Of a stretch of 8,747 nucleotides of DNA, positions 313-8,190 are shown in pieces. The DNA is taken from NCBI GenBank assembly GCA_028291285.1, contig JAQGIJ010000347.1:1-8747 (forward strand), read 5' to 3'. The position numbers and the translations under genes were made by a program. The stretch comes from Phenylobacterium sp. GTDB lineage: Bacteria > Pseudomonadota > Alphaproteobacteria > Caulobacterales > Caulobacteraceae. The first letter of the stretch is position 1. Every line of letters starts with the position of its first letter. Under the pieces are notes generated by a model that saw only the letters and a list, made by a program, of their open reading frames with translations, was not told where the DNA came from and made no database searches.

Positions 313-597
313 TTAGTAGAGCTCTATGGTGGTGGCCCGGGTGTTGGGCTCGCGCCTGGCGCCGGTCCGCAGCTCGACCAGCGCGTTCGGCTCCTCCGAG
401 CCCGCCGTGAAGACGCCGCGCGGGCGGTGGTACTTGAACGAGCGGCCCAGCAGCTGCACGCCCGCGCCCAGCAGCGCCGAGGCCAGGGTGACGCCGGCGA
501 AACCGCGATAGGTGCGGCCGTCGAAGTCGAAGGCCAGCGCCGCGCCGCGCTCGACCAGGCCGCCGCTCGCCAGCCGGTAGGGGCCCGGCCGCCTCAT
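313..597 (-). CDS. mgdC: N-methylglutamate dehydrogenase alpha subunit (SoxA-like), N-terminal ferredoxin-like domain, ends at an in-frame stop
   Basis: A 94-residue ORF starts at ATG 597-595, overlapping the mgdB stop by ATGA. It matches the N-terminal domain of heterotetrameric sarcosine oxidase / NMG dehydrogenase alpha subunits: FDFDGRTYRGFAGVTLASALL, GRSFKYHRPRG (51-61), EEPNALVELR and a final ATTIELY. In this family the domain has the Fer2_4 (2Fe-2S ferredoxin-like) fold but often lacks cluster cysteines; no Cys is present here, so no Fe-S cluster is expected. The full subunit is normally a single chain of about 950-1000 residues. Here TAA (315-313) ends it after ELY, where family members as I recall them have one ordinary residue before Gly-Leu/Met. 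I call it a fragment of a disrupted or split gene; a sequencing error is also possible. No frameshift is needed to join the two parts. Confidence 0.8.
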   Translation of the reverse strand: MRRPGPYRLASGGLVERGAALAFDFDGRTYRGFAGVTLASALLGAGVQLLGRSFKYHRPRGVFTAGSEEPNALVELRTGARREPNTRATTIELY

Positions 598-2117: not shown

Positions 2118-3416
2118 TCAGCAGTCAAGCGTCGTCTCCCGCTCCCACTCGGTGAGATGGCGGGTGTATTCGTTCCACTCGGCGTGCTTCAGCTTCAGGT
2201 AGGAGGCGGCGAAGCCCTCGCCCAGGCCCGCCTTCAGGGTCTCGTCGGCGTCGAAGCAGCGCAGCGCGTCCAGGAGGTTCAGCGGCAGCTTCTTCACCCC
2301 TTCGACCAGGTGGCCGTGGGTGTACATGTTGATGTCGAGCCGTTGGCCCGGGCTCTTCGAGTTCAGCATGCCGTCGAGCCCCGCCGCCAGGATCGCCGCC
2401 TGCAGCAGGTAGGGGTTGGCCGCGCCGTCGGCGAGCCGGAACTCGAAGCGCCCCGCCTCGGGAATGCGGATCATGTGGGTGCGGTTGTTGCCGGAGAAGG
2501 TGGCGGTGTTCGGCGACCAGGTGGCGCCCGAGGTGGTCACCGGCGCATTGATCCGCTTGTAGGAGTTCACCGCCCCGTTGGTGATGGCGCAGAGCGCCTC
2601 GGCGTGCTCGATCACGCCTGCGATGAAGCTGTAGCCGAGCGCCGAGACGCCCAGCTCGTCGGACGGGTCCTCGAACAGGTTCTTGCCGTCGCGCCAGACC
2701 GAGACGTGGGCGTGGCAGCCGTTGCCGGTCAGGTTGGAAAACGGCTTGGGCATGAAGGTCGCGCGCAGGCCGTGCTTCTCGGCGATCGAGCGCGTCATGA
2801 ACTTGAAGAAGGAGTGGCGGTCGGCGGTGACCAGGGCGGCGTCATAATCCCAGTTCATCTCGAACTGGCCGTTCGCGTCCTCGTGGTCGTTCTGGTAGGG
2901 CCGCCAGCCCATCTCCAGCATGGCGTCGCAGATCTCCGAGACCACGTCGTAGCGGCGCATCAGAGCGGACTGGTCGTAGCACGGCTTGGCCTGCCGGTCG
3001 GCGGCGTCGGAGATCGCCGTCCCGTCCGGGTTGATCATGAAGTATTCGCACTCCACCCCGGTCTTCATCTCGAAGCCGTGGCTGGCCGCCTCGGCGACGA
3101 GGCGCTTGAGGACGTTGCGCGGGGCGTGGTCGACCGGCTTGCCGGACATCCAGGGATCGCCCGCGAACCAGGCCACCTCCGGCTTCCAGGGCAGCTGCAC
3201 GACGCTCTCCAGGTCGGGGATCACGAACATGTCCGGGTCGGCCGGGGTCATGTCCAGCCAGGTGGCGAAACCCGCGAAGCCGGCGCCGGTCTTGGCCATG
3301 GCGTCGATCGCCGAAGCCGGCACCAGCTTGGAGCGCTGGCCGCCGAACAGGTCCGTGAAGGAGATCAGGAAGTACTTGACCCCCTTCTCCTTCGCCCACT
3401 GCGCCAATGCGGTCAT
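2118..3416 (-). CDS. gmaS: gamma-glutamylmethylamide synthetase (glutamine synthetase family)
   Basis: This 432-residue glutamine-synthetase fold protein would ligate methylamine to glutamate with ATP, forming gamma-glutamylmethylamide, the entry step of the NMG pathway. Synthetase residues are visible in order: ECE (122-124, metal ligands), HED plus NGQFE (178-186), NGCHAH (232-237), NSYKR (284-288), NRTHMIRIP (311-319) and RFEFR followed by ANPYL (323-336). The FDGSS motif of ammonia-using enzymes, which carries the ammonium-site Asp, is replaced by FAGFA (47-51), as expected if the substrate is methylamine. The C-terminus lacks the adenylylation-loop sequence of GlnA type I. Databases often label such proteins type III glutamine synthetase or GlnT. 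It lies 12 nt after mgsC with GGGGGA 4 nt before ATG, and 19 nt before mgdA, within one operon. Confidence 0.93.
   Translation of the reverse strand: MTALAQWAKEKGVKYFLISFTDLFGGQRSKLVPASAIDAMAKTGAGFAGFATWLDMTPADPDMFVIPDLESVVQLPWKPEVAWFAGDPWMSGKPVDHAPRNVLKRLVAEAASHGFEMKTGVECEYFMINPDGTAISDAADRQAKPCYDQSALMRRYDVVSEICDAMLEMGWRPYQNDHEDANGQFEMNWDYDAALVTADRHSFFKFMTRSIAEKHGLRATFMPKPFSNLTGNGCHAHVSVWRDGKNLFEDPSDELGVSALGYSFIAGVIEHAEALCAITNGAVNSYKRINAPVTTSGATWSPNTATFSGNNRTHMIRIPEAGRFEFRLADGAANPYLLQAAILAAGLDGMLNSKSPGQRLDINMYTHGHLVEGVKKLPLNLLDALRCFDADETLKAGLGEGFAASYLKLKHAEWNEYTRHLTEWERETTLDC
2136..2140 (-). promoter_or_regulatory. possible ribosome binding site for an alternative TTG start of mgdA
   Basis: On the minus strand GGGAG lies 7 nt before the TTG at 2128-2126, inside the last codons of gmaS. 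The ATG at 2098 that I prefer from homology has only the GAGG of the gmaS stop region, about 17 nt away, and no good site closer. If the TTG is used, MgdA gains an N-terminal extension MTAEARARRP and overlaps gmaS by 11 nt. Confidence 0.3.
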
Positions 3417-3428
3417 CTCGTCCCCCGA

Positions 3429-4757
3429 TCAGAAGCCGGTCTTGCCGGGTATCCAGTTGGTGCCCGCCAGCGGCACCTGCGCCATGGCGGCCGCCTCGAC
3501 GGTCAGCGCCACCAGGTCTTCCGGCTCCAGGTTGTGCACGTGGCTCTTGCCGCAGGCCCGGGCGATGGTCTGCGCCTCGAGCGTCAGCACGGCCAAGTAG
3601 TTGGCCAGCCGACGCCCGGCGAGCACCGGATCGAGCCTGGCCGCCAGCACCGGGTCCTGGGTGGTGATGCCCGCCGGATCGCGGCCCTCGTGCCAGTCGT
3701 CGTAGGCGCCGGCCGTGGCGCCCAGCTTGCGGTATTCGTCTTCAAGGCGCGGGTCGTTGTCGCCGAGCGCGATCAGGGCCGCGGTGCCGATGGAGACGGC
3801 GTCGGCGCCCAGCGCCAGGGCCTTGGCCACGTCGGCCCCGTTGCGGATCCCGCCGGAGACCACCAGCTGCACCTTGCGATGCAGGCCCAGGTCTTGCAGC
3901 GCCTGCACCGCCGGGCGGATCGCCGCCAGGATCGGCAGGCCGACGTGCTCGATGAACACCTCCTGGGTGGCGGCCGTGCCGCCCTGCATCCCGTCCAGCA
4001 CCACCACATCGGCGCCCGACTTCACCGCCAGCGCCGTGTCGTAATAGGGCCGGCTCGCGCCGACCTTGACGTAGATCGGCTTCTCCCAATCGGTGATCTC
4101 GCGCAGCTCCTCGATCTTGATCTCCAGATCGTCGGGCCCGGTCCAGTCGGGGTGGCGGCAGGCCGAGCGCTGGTCGATGCCGGCCGGCAGCGTGCGCATC
4201 TCGGCGACCCGCTCGGAGATCTTCTGGCCCAGCAGCATGCCGCCGCCGCCGGGCTTGGCCCCCTGCCCGACCACCACCTCGATGGCGTCGCAGCGGCGCA
4301 GGTCGTCGGGGTTCATGCCGTAGCGCGAGGGCAGGATCTGGTAGACCAGGATCTCGGAGTGGCCGCGCTCCTCCTCGGTCATGCCGCCGTCGCCGGTCGT
4401 GGTGCTGGTGCCCATGGCGCTGGCGCCGCGGCCCAGCGCCTCCTTGGCCTGGGCCGAGAGCGCGCCGAAGCTCATGCCGGCGATGGTGATCGGGATCTTC
4501 AGCTGGATCGGCTTCTTGGCGAACCGGCCGCCCAGCACCACGTCGGTGCCGCAGCGCTCGCGGTAGCCCTCCAGCGGATAGCGCGACACCGAGGCGCCGA
4601 GGAACAAGAGGTCGTCGAAGTGCGGCAGCGCCCGCTTCGCCCCGCCGCCGCGGATGTCGTAGATCCCCGTGGCCGCCGCCCGCTGGATCTCGGAGATCGC
4701 ATAGGGGGTGAAGGTGGCCGAAAGCCGCGGGGTGGTGGTGTGGCGCTCGCTGCTCAT
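3429..4757 (-). CDS. mgsC: N-methylglutamate synthase large subunit (glutamate-synthase FMN domain, GlxD-like)
   Basis: This 442-residue protein is the FMN/synthase TIM-barrel domain of glutamate synthase as a separate chain. In NMG synthase it would form N-methylglutamate from glutamate and the methylamino group of gamma-glutamylmethylamide. Visible motifs are PITIAGMSFGALS (89-101), GQGAKPGGGG (164-173), PIYVKVG (228-234), VVVLDGMQGGTAATQ (251-265) and the phosphate-binding SGGIRNGADVAKALALGADA (301-320), followed by VSIGTAAL. Where GltB has cysteines of the 3Fe-4S cluster around CPxGIATQ, this protein has GRDPAGITTQ (358-367), and its four Cys residues (69, 156, 200, 402) do not form the CysX5CysX4Cys pattern. 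A canonical cluster is therefore not expected. The gene starts 10 nt after mgsB, with GAGG overlapping that gene's stop. Without the gmaS/mgd context it would be annotated as a glutamate synthase-related protein. Confidence 0.92.
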   Translation of the reverse strand: MSSERHTTTPRLSATFTPYAISEIQRAAATGIYDIRGGGAKRALPHFDDLLFLGASVSRYPLEGYRERCGTDVVLGGRFAKKPIQLKIPITIAGMSFGALSAQAKEALGRGASAMGTSTTTGDGGMTEEERGHSEILVYQILPSRYGMNPDDLRRCDAIEVVVGQGAKPGGGGMLLGQKISERVAEMRTLPAGIDQRSACRHPDWTGPDDLEIKIEELREITDWEKPIYVKVGASRPYYDTALAVKSGADVVVLDGMQGGTAATQEVFIEHVGLPILAAIRPAVQALQDLGLHRKVQLVVSGGIRNGADVAKALALGADAVSIGTAALIALGDNDPRLEDEYRKLGATAGAYDDWHEGRDPAGITTQDPVLAARLDPVLAGRRLANYLAVLTLEAQTIARACGKSHVHNLEPEDLVALTVEAAAMAQVPLAGTNWIPGKTGF

Positions 4758-4767
4758 CCCCGCGACC

Positions 4768-5457
4768 TCAGTAGGCGTCGGCGTTGTCGACGTGGAAATG
4801 GTAGAGGCGCCGAGCCGAGCCGTAGAGGCGGAACTCGTCGGGCGCGACCTCGCCGTTGACGCCCGCCGCCTCCAGCACGCCCATGAGGACGGCGCGGTCC
4901 TCCGCTTCGAGGGGCTTCTCGACGCAGTCTGCGCCCAGGCTGCGCACCGCGCCGCGGACGAACAGCCGGGCCTCGTAGATGCTGTCGCCGAGGTTCTCGC
5001 CCGCGCCGCCGAACACCACCAGGCTGCCGGCCTGGGCCATGAAGGCGCTCATCGGCCCCACCGAGCCCTTCACGACGATGTCGATGCCCTTCATCGAGAT
5101 GCCGCAGCGGGCCGAGGCGTCGCCCTCGATGATCAGCAGGCCGCCGCGCCCGGTGGCGCCCGCCGCCTGGCTGGCGTCCCCCGCCACGCGCACGCAGCCG
5201 GACATCATGTTCTCGGCGACCCCCACCCCGGCGTTGCCGCGCACCAGCACGCTGGCGCGCTTGTTCATGCCGGCGCAGTAGTAGCCGACGTGGCTGTCGA
5301 TCTCGATCTTCACCGGGGCGTCGACGCCGGCGGCGATGGCGTGCTTGCCGCCGGGGTTCTTCACCTCCCACAGCGTCTCGTTGGTCTCGTCGGAGAGGCC
5401 GTGCAGCGCGTGGTTCAGCTCCCGCACCGTGGTCTCGGCAAGGTCCACCACCGGCAT
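4768..5457 (-). CDS. mgsB: N-methylglutamate synthase subunit, GltB C-terminal GXGXG domain (GlxC-like)
   Basis: A 229-residue protein corresponds to the C-terminal beta-helix (GXGXG) domain of glutamate synthase as a separate chain; in the parent enzyme this domain is structural and helps couple the amidotransferase and FMN sites. Repeating glycine-rich turns are visible: VLVRGNAGVGVAENMMSG (70-87), LLIIEGDASARCGISMKG (107-124), DIVVKGSVGPMSAFMAQAG and LVVFGGAGENLGDSIYEARLFVRG. The ATG at 5457-5455 overlaps the mgsA stop as TGATG. The same reading frame is open far upstream, inside mgsA, but that part has no resemblance to the family, and MPVVDLAETTVRELN is a normal GlxC-type start. The C-terminal tail RRLYHFHVDNADAY lies beyond the repeat domain. 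Confidence 0.9.
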   Translation of the reverse strand: MPVVDLAETTVRELNHALHGLSDETNETLWEVKNPGGKHAIAAGVDAPVKIEIDSHVGYYCAGMNKRASVLVRGNAGVGVAENMMSGCVRVAGDASQAAGATGRGGLLIIEGDASARCGISMKGIDIVVKGSVGPMSAFMAQAGSLVVFGGAGENLGDSIYEARLFVRGAVRSLGADCVEKPLEAEDRAVLMGVLEAAGVNGEVAPDEFRLYGSARRLYHFHVDNADAY

Positions 5458-6350
5458 CAATGGCGTTCCCAGGCGTAGACGGTGGCCGGCTCCGGCTCGA
5501 ACACGCGCGCCTGTTCGATCCCCGGCAGGCCGGCGAGCGCCCGGTACTCCGAGCCGAAGGCCACATAGTCGTCGGTCTCGGCCATCACCGCCGGCTTGCA
5601 GGCGATCGGGTCGCGCAGCACGGCGAAGCCGTTCTCCGTCCCCACCACGAAGGTGTAGAACCCGTCGAGGTCCGCCAGCGCGTCCTCCAGCGCCGCCTCC
5701 AGGCTCGCGCCCTCGCGCATCCGCCAGGTCAGGTAGCCCGCGGCCACCTCGGAATCGTTCTCCGTCTCGAAGCTCAGGCCCTCGTGCGCCAGCATCCGGC
5801 GCAGACTGTTGTGGTTGGAGAGCGAGCCGTTGTGCACCAGGCACTGGTCGGCGCCGGTGGAGAAGGGGTGCGCCCCGTCGGTGGTGACCGAGCTTTCCGT
5901 CGCCATCCGGGTGTGGCCGATGGCGTGGCTGCCGGACATGCTTGCCAAGCCGAAGCGCTCGGCGACCTCGGCGGGCCGGCCGACTTCCTTGTAGAGCTCC
6001 ATGCGGCGGCCGGCGCCGACGAGGTGCGTCTCGGGATGCTCGGCGGCGAGCCAGGCGCGCACCTCCGCCTCCAGCTCGGCAGGGATGGAGAGCACCGCGT
6101 GGCGGTCGCGGACGCTGAGCTCGGCGGCTTGCGCGAAGCTCGCCTCGAACTGGCCGGACAGCACCTCGGCCGGCGTCCCGTTCACCCGCAGCGTCAGCTT
6201 CACCCGCTCCGGCGCGCCCGCGCCATAGATGGCGAAGCCGGCGCTGTCCGGGCCGCGGTCGCTCATCACGCCCAGCATGTCGCTGACCATGGCGCCGAGC
6301 TTCGGCTCAAGCTCCGCACGTTTCAGGAAGAGGCCGACAATTCCGCACAT
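5457..6350 (-). CDS. mgsA: N-methylglutamate synthase glutamine-amidotransferase subunit (class II, GlxB-like)
   Basis: This is a 297-residue class II (Ntn-type) amidotransferase. MCGIVG places the catalytic Cys2 directly after the removable initiator Met, which fixes the start at ATG 6350-6348. Other conserved elements are SDRGPDSAG (30-38), GHTRMATES (145-153), the HPF motif (161-163), VHNGSLSNHN (172-181) and ENDSEV (197-202), all of which bind the glutamine-type substrate. In NMG synthase this subunit would act on the gamma-amide bond of gamma-glutamylmethylamide in place of glutamine, releasing methylamine into the complex; this role is inferred from context. It is the first gene of the mgs-gmaS-mgd operon, following a 112-nt intergenic region that has a promoter candidate. 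GGAG lies only 2 nt before the ATG, a rather short spacing. Alone it could be mistaken for the GlxB or PurF amidotransferase domain. Confidence 0.92.
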   Translation of the reverse strand: MCGIVGLFLKRAELEPKLGAMVSDMLGVMSDRGPDSAGFAIYGAGAPERVKLTLRVNGTPAEVLSGQFEASFAQAAELSVRDRHAVLSIPAELEAEVRAWLAAEHPETHLVGAGRRMELYKEVGRPAEVAERFGLASMSGSHAIGHTRMATESSVTTDGAHPFSTGADQCLVHNGSLSNHNSLRRMLAHEGLSFETENDSEVAAGYLTWRMREGASLEAALEDALADLDGFYTFVVGTENGFAVLRDPIACKPAVMAETDDYVAFGSEYRALAGLPGIEQARVFEPEPATVYAWERH

Positions 6351-6375
6351 GGCTCCGGTCCGTTGGGTCGCACGG

Positions 6376-6404
6376 AGCTAAGGCGGCGCGCCCGTGGCCG
6401 TCAA
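6376..6404 (-). promoter_or_regulatory. candidate sigma70-type promoter of the mgs-gmaS-mgd operon
   Basis: On the minus strand TTGACG (6404-6399) is followed after 17 nt by TTAGCT (6381-6376). The -35 hexamer matches consensus in five of six positions; the -10 is a loose match, which is common in GC-rich alphaproteobacteria. Transcription would start near 6370 and give a leader of about 20 nt before mgsA. It sits at the downstream edge of the most AT-rich stretch in the window. Not experimentally supported. Confidence 0.45.
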
Positions 6405-6409
6405 CCCGC

Positions 6410-6426
6410 AGGAACGAAAATTTCCT
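6410..6426 (-). promoter_or_regulatory. candidate operator for the adjacent XRE-cupin regulator
   Basis: This is an interrupted palindrome with 5-bp arms, AGGAA-N7-TTCCT, whose arms are identical on both strands. It begins 5 nt upstream of the candidate -35 of the mgsA promoter. On the minus strand a further GGAA (6437-6434) lies 9 nt upstream of the first arm's GGAA, so a tandem arrangement of half-sites is possible. The position, just upstream of -35, would suit an activator. The assignment to the neighbouring regulator is inference from location only. Confidence 0.3.
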
Positions 6427-6439
6427 GAGAATAATTCCA

Positions 6440-6456
6440 CGCCCACAAATTGGGCG
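6440..6456 (-). terminator. small hairpin after the regulator gene, possible weak terminator
   Basis: On the minus strand CGCCCA-ATTTG-TGGGCG forms a 6-bp stem with a 5-nt loop, starting 6 nt after the regulator's stop codon. It is followed by TGGAATTATTC, which is not a clean T-tract, so termination would be weak at best. As a 17-bp palindrome in DNA it could equally be a second operator. Confidence 0.3.
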
Positions 6457-6462
6457 CCCGCC

Positions 6463-7125
6463 TCAGTGCCGCTCGGCGCGGTAGACGATGATCGACAGAT
6501 AGGTCATCGGGCTCTGCAGCAGCGCCTCCGGCCCGTGCAGGGCGCCGGAGTCGAACAGCAGGGAATCGCCCGGTTTCAGGTGGTAGGTGCGGTCGGCGTG
6601 CCGGTAGAGCACCTCGCCGCTCAGCATGTAGATGAACTCCGCCCCGTGGTGCCGGAAGCCGGTGTAGGGCGCAGCCTCCTCGTTGAGCGTGATGAGGTAG
6701 GGCTCCAGCACCACGTCGGAGCCGAGCGCGTGGCCGAGCAGCTGGTAGACGTGGCCGACCTTGGTGCCGCGCCGGTCGATCACCACGCCTTGGCCCGCCG
6801 GCACGTAGGAGCAGTCGCGCCGCTCCTCGAAGGTGGAGAAGAGGGTGGTCAGCGGCACGTTCAGCGCCTGGGCCACGCCCTGCAGGGTGGAGAGCGATGG
6901 CGAGATCTGTCCGTTCTCGATCTTCGACAGCATGCCGGCGGAGATCGCCGCGGCGGCCGCGAGGTCGGCGACGGAAAGGTGGGTCTTCTGGCGAAGCTCG
7001 CGAATCTGGGCGCCGATGGCGCGCTCCAAAGTGCGCTCGTGCGCAGGCCCGGCGGGCGGCGCGTTCGAACCGGTGGCGAGGTCCGCCTCCGGCGCCTCCG
7101 CCTGTGGTCGCTCGCCTTCAGCCAT
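6463..7125 (-). CDS. XRE-family transcriptional regulator with C-terminal cupin domain
   Basis: A 220-residue regulator from the chosen start. An XRE/Cro-type helix-turn-helix spans about residues 35-95 (IGAQIRELRQKTHLSVADLA, then MLSKIENGQISPSLSTL, then ALNVPLTTLF). A single cupin barrel follows at about 140-215, with FRHHGAEFIYMLSG and YHLKPGDSLLFDSGALHG; His159/160, Glu163 and His197 are candidate ligand or metal positions. This architecture is common for sensors of amino acid, polyamine or amine metabolism. It lies directly upstream of the mgs operon in the same orientation, so it probably controls that operon, possibly in response to methylamine, gamma-glutamylmethylamide or N-methylglutamate; this is inference. 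The first 30 residues are Ala/Pro/Glu-rich and look disordered. I chose ATG 7125, preceded by GGAGCAGGACG; in-frame ATGs at 7149 and 7170 would add 8 or 15 residues. Confidence 0.88.
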   Translation of the reverse strand: MAEGERPQAEAPEADLATGSNAPPAGPAHERTLERAIGAQIRELRQKTHLSVADLAAAAAISAGMLSKIENGQISPSLSTLQGVAQALNVPLTTLFSTFEERRDCSYVPAGQGVVIDRRGTKVGHVYQLLGHALGSDVVLEPYLITLNEEAAPYTGFRHHGAEFIYMLSGEVLYRHADRTYHLKPGDSLLFDSGALHGPEALLQSPMTYLSIIVYRAERH

Positions 7126-7190
7126 CGTCCTGCTCCGTCTCGCCGCCATTGCTGGCGGGAGACCGCTCATAAGCCCAACCGGGCGTGGCG

Positions 7191-7502
7191 TCAGCCGGCC
7201 TGCGCGCCGCCCGCCCGCGCCACCGCATAGCGGATCCTGGCGATCCGATAGGCCTCGGGAACGGAGAGCGCATAGACGAAGAGGCCGCCGGCGAGGCGTC
7301 CCACCAGGCTGTGGTGCGGCGTCGTCAGGTTCCAGGTCACGAAGGTCAGGCAGACCATGAACATCTGCAGGGTGAAGCCGCGCCGCGCCTGTCCGCAGAC
7401 CACGTGGCCGAAGCCGGGCAGCAGGACGGCGATGACCAGGACCAGCTTGGGGTCGAGCGGGCCGCGGAGGAACGGCGCCGGCAGGCGAAGGGCTTGCGAC
7501 AT
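7191..7502 (-). CDS. small membrane protein of unknown function
   Basis: A 103-residue hydrophobic protein that I do not recognise by name. Three likely membrane segments are visible: about 18-34 (LVLVIAVLLPGFGHV), 44-60 (TLQMFMVCLTFVTWNL) and 67-85 (GRLAGGLFVYALSVPEAYRI). The element PGFGHVVCGQARRGF between the first two resembles the PGxGHxxxGxxxRG pattern found in several small TM2-like or DUF membrane families, without identifying one. It begins one base after the preceding gene (TGAGATG), with a strong GGAGG (7516-7512) 9 nt before the ATG, so it is co-translated with the 228-aa protein and probably the permease. It could be an accessory membrane component for transport or sensing, but no function is demonstrated. 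Codon use is like that of its neighbours. Confidence 0.75.
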   Translation of the reverse strand: MSQALRLPAPFLRGPLDPKLVLVIAVLLPGFGHVVCGQARRGFTLQMFMVCLTFVTWNLTTPHHSLVGRLAGGLFVYALSVPEAYRIARIRYAVARAGGAQAG

Positions 7503-7503
7503 C

Positions 7504-8190
7504 TCAGCTGGCCTCCTTGAGCCCGGTGCGCGGCTGCAGGGCGGCCGAGACCGCGATGGCGTAGTCGAGCAGGCGCCGGGCGAGGGCGGGATCCAGCCGC
7601 ACCTCGCCGAACTCGGCCTGGCGCAGCACGCCGTAGCGGGCGCGGTCGGCCTGGCGCAGCTGGCGCACCACCCGCGTGCCCCGCGGCGTGATCAGCAGCT
7701 CCTTCATCTGCGGCTCCTCGAACGCCGCGACGTGGGGCGCCAGCCGGTCGAGGTCGGGCAGGGTCGCCGGGTCGTCGGTGCAGATCACCGCCTGATCCGG
7801 CCAGCCGGCGGGGACGGCCAGCCGGTGGGCGAGGTCGCCGCTCGGCGAATAGACCTCGGCGCCTTGCGGCCGCATCATCAGGTCGAAGACGCCGCGCACG
7901 GGATTGGGCGCGAGCACCGTGGTCTTCAGCCAGAGCGAGGGGACCTTGCGCACGGCCAGGTCGTCCACCACCGGCTCGAGCCTGACCTCGAAGCCGCGGT
8001 AGCGGCCGGCGAGCACCGGATAGGCGGGGCCCTCCTGCGTCACCCGGAAGCTCTGGAAGAGCTCCAGGCAGTCGGCGAAGAGGACGCCGCGCTGGCGCTT
8101 GCGCCGCGCGCCGTCGCGACGGAACAGCCAGACCAGGCCGGCCGCCGCGGCGAGCGCCGCCAGAGCCACGAGGGTGGGGGGAAGCCCCAT
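7504..8190 (-). CDS. membrane-anchored protein of unknown function
   Basis: A 228-residue protein that I do not recognise. One N-terminal hydrophobic segment (about 5-23, LVALAALAAAAGLVWLF) is followed by a strongly basic stretch (RRDGARRKRQR, 24-34), which predicts a single-pass anchor with the rest of the chain in the cytoplasm. The soluble part begins GVLFADCLELFQSF and contains VLAGRYRGFEVRLEPVVDDLAVRKVPSLWLK, then a region of mixed alpha/beta character ending in RRLLDYAIAVSAALQPRTG. No catalytic motif is evident and there is only a scattering of Cys. The start ATG 8190-8188 overlaps the permease stop (TGATG). The frame remains open upstream inside the permease gene, but only as out-of-frame shadow sequence. 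Its tight coupling to the permease suggests a joint role, possibly as an auxiliary transporter or assembly protein; this is inference. Confidence 0.8.
   Translation of the reverse strand: MGLPPTLVALAALAAAAGLVWLFRRDGARRKRQRGVLFADCLELFQSFRVTQEGPAYPVLAGRYRGFEVRLEPVVDDLAVRKVPSLWLKTTVLAPNPVRGVFDLMMRPQGAEVYSPSGDLAHRLAVPAGWPDQAVICTDDPATLPDLDRLAPHVAAFEEPQMKELLITPRGTRVVRQLRQADRARYGVLRQAEFGEVRLDPALARRLLDYAIAVSAALQPRTGLKEAS

Follow-up and report, generated by a model that had tools for sequence, protein, structure and literature searches.

The window (the whole 8,747-nucleotide stretch of Phenylobacterium sp. DNA that was analysed) carries on its minus strand a set of genes whose content and order are those expected of an ordinary methylamine operon of the N-methylglutamate (NMG) pathway. 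Its mgdC gene is interrupted by an in-frame TAA at positions 313–315. This is one disturbed codon within the conserved mgdC frame; the neighbouring complete genes are open and the stop is absent from the relatives examined. The explanation placed first here, to which we give an even chance, is that a sporadic nonsense codon broke mgdC and left a recent, real allele, null or weakened, of N-methylglutamate dehydrogenase. For this explanation we infer that the base is real, that the event is recent and that activity is lost.

The operon and the interrupted mgdC gene

The gene order along the minus strand is the end of an amino-acid permease gene, two small genes, an HTH-cupin regulator gene, mgsA, mgsB, mgsC, gmaS, mgdA, mgdB and the start of mgdC. 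The names gmaS, mgsC and mgdC are those found in part of the N-methylglutamate pathway literature (PMC5023228). The two small genes (7191–8190), lying between permease and regulator, are without Pfam match; the regulator (6463–7170) has one. A scan of positions 6300–7200 for promoters and terminators gave nothing. The mgs module codes for a GlxB-like glutamine amidotransferase (mgsA, 5457–6350, open, Pfam match), a GXGXG domain protein similar to GlxC (mgsB, 4768–5457, open), whose E-value of 4.7e-6 lies below Pfam's curated cut-off and whose assignment also draws on the names of similar plasmid genes, and a GlxD-like glutamate-synthase domain protein (mgsC, 3429–4757, open, Pfam match). It is followed by the gene of a gmaS-like protein of the type III glutamine synthetase family (2118–3416, 432 aa, intact, TIGR03105 at 677 bits), by mgdA, coding the SoxB-like beta subunit (848–2098, 416 aa, intact, TIGR01373 at 674 bits), and by mgdB, coding the SoxD-like delta subunit (594–848), which matches SoxD with an E-value of 8.5e-29 and TIGR01374 with 95.7 bits, below the cut-off of 116.5. 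Note that the remaining mgs and mgd letters are those that we take to apply, and they were set on the contig by family and gene order. The nearest MgdA protein, 87% identical (P0122), comes from a MAG named Caulobacteraceae, and another relative of MgdA (P0126) is 83% identical; P0260 is an alpha subunit of 993 aa. A Mesorhizobium locus (L046, from about 894 and 1391) has a permease gene, two small genes (each 45% identical), mgs-like genes, gmaS, mgdA, mgdB and mgdC in the same order, and no match to the HTH-cupin regulator of the window.

Read from position 597 down to 1 of the minus strand, mgdC is a single frame that goes from MRRPG to TTIELY, meets the TAA, continues with a Gly codon and then, from the ATG at 307–309, with MTAASQNRWPSLK and on to GAGAAG. 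The codons are TAA-GGG-ATG, so that the ATG begins 3 nt past the stop. The first mgdC piece (313–597, alpha subunit) has 94 residues before the TAA and a Fer2_4-like domain without Cys (E 2.3e-21, profile positions 3–71 of 82). The second piece, from the candidate restart ATG (positions 1–309), is open to the end of the window over 103 codons and consists of the conserved linker and the start of the Rossmann domain. What follows of mgdC lies beyond the contig, including the part that would correspond to the A3, GCV_T and GCV_T_C domains found in the carboxyl-terminal part of five scanned relatives; mgdD would lie there too. The first piece covers positions 4–91 of the TIGR01372 (SoxA family) profile and the second piece positions 94–196; only the stop and the Gly codon thus stand between them. 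Because the frame around it is conserved, the stop is no chance effect of open reading frames. At all ten other gene ends of the window the stop is TGA, so that this TAA does not have the look of an evolved end.

These readings bear out most of what the original prediction had claimed for the site, namely a TAA without frameshift, conserved alpha-subunit sequence on both sides of a single affected codon, an ATG 3 nt past the stop, and intact genes upstream, the complete ones being open, with nearly full-length matches of mgdA and of the glutamine synthetase gene to their family profiles. An exception is the position of the stop, which had been placed exactly at the end of the ferredoxin-like domain. 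In the window the Fer2_4 match breaks off at position 71 of the 82 in the profile, whereas in each of five scanned relatives it extends beyond this codon to position 81; in one full-length relative, P0242, it goes on for 8 residues beyond the stop column. The stop sits within the final portion of the Fer2_4 profile. Structure models were of little help. The 94-residue piece folded alone is fairly confident only at about residues 11–50, has pLDDT below 50 at residues 63–94 and is a weak model overall (mean 60.6), and the P0242 model has pLDDT below 50 over residues 44–156 save one; both are unreliable here and give the stop no place on a fold.

The same codon in relatives

The stop was searched in several sets of relatives. 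None of the 112 genome copies aligned through the codon has a stop there; the codons found are GAC (42), GAG (16), CAG (12), GAT (10), GAA (8) and others. Only matches spanning the codon by ten residues were kept in this set, which includes the best 80 of at least 386 confirmed loci and holds at least one pair from the same genome (L069 and L081). The 120 nearest full-length proteins (best 120 of 8,000 scored) have no stop either, the residue being Asp in 73, Glu in 31 and another in 16. No stop was seen inside the aligned alpha subunit in the 230 real rows listed (227 distinct after three repeats), a real row being one with E below 1e-28 and rows being counted by hand. They comprise 26 rows from 15 genomes, the best 150 rows from a search of 385 genomes (174 with any match) and 54 rows from a search of 398 genomes (98 with any match). 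Almost all of the weaker rows in the last search (E above 1e-6) are short matches to the FAD fold, and some of these contain a stop. The order of genome G261 gave a match in 3 of 5 genomes and no stop among the matches listed. The viral collection gave 27 pattern matches and no relative. The fixed TAA in related species, which the original prediction had named as support for a true split, finds no example among the relatives examined. Note that identity to the nearest full-length relatives is about 77% in the stop region, so that a very narrow clade, outside this sampling, may share the stop. A narrow search of open-licence papers found nothing on a split of this subunit or on a premature stop in the pathway.

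Of the 120 relatives of MgdC listed from the protein database, 112 are single chains of 981–1035 aa. The first mgdC piece is there a single member, P0001, on one contig of 8,747 bases. Among the 120 N-terminal piece matches listed, the window's own is alone in ending at ELY; P0048 stops at EL, one residue earlier, and its source calls it 'partial'. Others, P0014, P0017, P0036 and P0076 among them, are amino-terminal pieces that go out of frame after ELY, perhaps by sequencing errors. A break hot spot after ELY was considered and rejected: the out-of-frame pieces, including P0017, which is named Caulobacteraceae, break at scattered places, and the limit of about 52–165 aa used in that search selects breaks.

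Odd residues were counted at near-invariant columns as a sign of decay. The visible mgdC deviates at 3 of 108 columns, and 15 of 120 relatives deviate as much or more; on genome loci the figures are 3 of 70 columns, reached by 10 of 111. By piece, the first has 2 deviations in 51 columns, a count that 13 of 120 relatives reach, and the second 1 in 57 (36 of 120). The mgdA counts are typical: 40 of 119 relatives reach its 3 deviations in 232 columns, and on genome loci 73 of 103 reach its 1 in 126; mgdB has none in 19. The mgs proteins deviate more, GlxB at 11 of 152 and GlxC at 21 of 134 columns (none of 6 relatives has as many) and GlxD at 13 of 332 (reached by 1 of 5); this comparison rests on five to six relatives, glutamine synthetase having too few loci, and we read the excess as distance rather than decay. 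Decay judged from excess odd residues was set aside for mgdC, whose counts are at the upper end yet within the spread of its relatives. Old decay is not evident in the visible mgdC, and any real lesion would thus be recent, as judged on the visible part. The earlier argument that the intact operon speaks against old decay stands to that extent, although it is judged only on the 103 codons past the restart. Two residues of mgdC are unusual: codon 36 (490–492, minus strand) is Val (GTC) where all 120 nearest full-length relatives have Asp, and residue 97 is Met where 117 of the 120 have Leu and none has Met.

The restart ATG and enzymes with a separate ferredoxin-like chain

In hydrogen cyanide synthase (HcnABC) HcnA is a separate ferredoxin-like domain and HcnB the FAD domain, a layout to which the original prediction had likened the two mgdC pieces. 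Related enzymes offer further cases in both directions. A ferredoxin-like domain is a separate small subunit in the split enzymes opine dehydrogenase (OdhABC) and D-hydroxyproline dehydrogenase (PMC4575208). In the opine and D-hydroxyproline dehydrogenases this gamma subunit has a four-cysteine [2Fe-2S] motif and the alpha subunit has an ADP-binding motif at its amino terminus, and in archaeal L-proline dehydrogenase the gamma subunit has its counterpart in the first ~120 residues of the alpha subunit (PMC4575208). The mgdC gene of the window does not follow the split type. Its 94-residue piece has no Cys, and it is therefore no iron-sulphur subunit like HcnA; the Rossmann match starts at residue 77 of the second piece, about 76 residues in, rather than at the amino terminus; and a split is not conserved among the relatives examined. 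By these features it would be a damaged member of the MgdC family, to which it is alike in the sequence of both pieces, in its place after mgdA and mgdB, in the gmaS- and mgs-like genes upstream and in its amino-terminal Fer2_4-like domain, and from which it differs by the TAA after residue 94 in place of a single chain of about 990 aa. Structures of the alpha subunit of heterotetrameric sarcosine oxidase (PDB 1vrq, 2gag) align to both pieces and are about 43 residues shorter between the aligned points (23 versus 66 in 1vrq), so that they do not show the stop site.

The likeness to HcnA and HcnB is weakened by these features; translation of a second chain is in itself plausible. The mgd genes are tightly joined, with gaps of −1 between mgdA and mgdB (848–850) and −4 between mgdB and mgdC (594–597), the start ATG of mgdC overlapping the mgdB stop by 4 nt. 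Pairing with the 16S tail is absent at the mgdB start and amounts to −2.9 kcal/mol at the mgdC start. Overlaps with such poor Shine-Dalgarno pairing suggest coupled translation. In three E. coli test pairs a gap of +2 nt cut reinitiation by 5, 20 and 70% (PMC10666635). Together, the coupled-looking junctions and the E. coli gap data make reinitiation at +3 nt, and some second chain, plausible; a leaky two-chain product may result, with no sign that it is conserved. The placing of the ATG at 307–309 is mildly unusual: of the 2,775 codon positions in the window's genes, 72 (2.6%) have an ATG exactly 3 nt further on. It has no Shine-Dalgarno motif at usable spacing; its pairing with the 16S tail is −3.1 kcal/mol, which 52% of 97 same-strand ATGs equal or better, and the paired stretch lies directly against the ATG.

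Origin of the stop codon

If a sporadic nonsense codon broke mgdC, ribosomes on the coupled mgdA-mgdB-mgdC message would halt after 94 residues. Some would probably restart at the ATG 3 nt on and give a second chain without the amino-terminal domain; the enzyme would then be lost or weak and the last oxidation of the NMG route impaired. The absence of the stop from orthologues and the otherwise conserved frame are consistent with such an allele. On the other side, the original prediction derived the TAA from GAA or CAA, which is right as arithmetic, whereas CAA is found in none of the 112 relatives and the commonest codon there is GAC; among the codons seen the TAA is one base from GAA only and two from GAC or GAG, and GAA is uncommon, accounting for 15 of the window's 166 Glu codons and for 8 of 112 codons in the relatives. 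Activity, moreover, need not be lost: in related enzymes (PMC4575208), activity is low without the gamma subunit or the beta subunit is active alone, and as the domain occurs both fused and free, an enzyme in two pieces or short at its amino terminus may still work. An error in the consensus would give an identical picture. That reading, in which a short contig carries the TAA through faulty consensus or assembly and mgdC is intact in the organism, is held with rather less than even confidence. There is no second database copy of the first piece to confirm the TAA, and the commonest relatives' codons, GAC and GAG, need two changes. With the TAA one base from GAA alone and Val36 and Met97 also odd, local consensus trouble is a close rival. 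Out-of-frame pieces are easily found among deposited proteins, so that a gene of the mgdC type is often broken or mis-sequenced in deposited contigs, as judged from a search that favours breaks. Against an error, no further break came to light among the window's complete genes, and the odd-residue counts of mgdC stay within the relatives' spread.

The alpha subunit could instead be made truly as two chains, by coupled termination and reinitiation at TAA-GGG-ATG, with pieces that reassemble as active enzyme; this we consider improbable. The rarity of an ATG at +3 nt and of Met at this residue, the coupled pattern of the upstream junctions, whose starts also lack good Shine-Dalgarno pairing, the E. 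coli gap data and the free or fused state of the domain within the family speak for it. No relative examined is split, however, for which reason a fixed split was rejected as leading reading. For 24% of the positions in the window's genes, one of the four codons that follow is an in-frame start (ATG, GTG or TTG), and 10 of 112 genome copies carry this same ATG with no stop; the cut inside Fer2_4, the missing Cys and the low pLDDT at the end of the first piece also argue against two chains. Slightly more improbable still is that a narrow lineage, perhaps near Caulobacteraceae, has a two-chain alpha subunit of NMG dehydrogenase made through TAA-GGG-ATG, with one extra subunit and a free, cluster-free ferredoxin-like chain. 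Read-through or recoding of the TAA into full-length MgdC would fit a single codon with the frame conserved on both sides, but it is very improbable, given TGA at the ten other gene ends, the lack of any other TAA or TAG in the window's gene frames and the sense codons at this position in the relatives examined. The weights given to nonsense, error, split and read-through are judgements and not computed values.

The sporadic nonsense codon remains the preferred reading, and the finding is an ordinary one, a premature stop that stands alone in an operon of known type. It carries a caution: a lone in-frame stop in one contig, even beside a restart ATG and close to a domain edge, is no evidence for a split enzyme unless it is common to relatives. 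If the split were true, the separation of a fused domain would have been caught within a known enzyme family.
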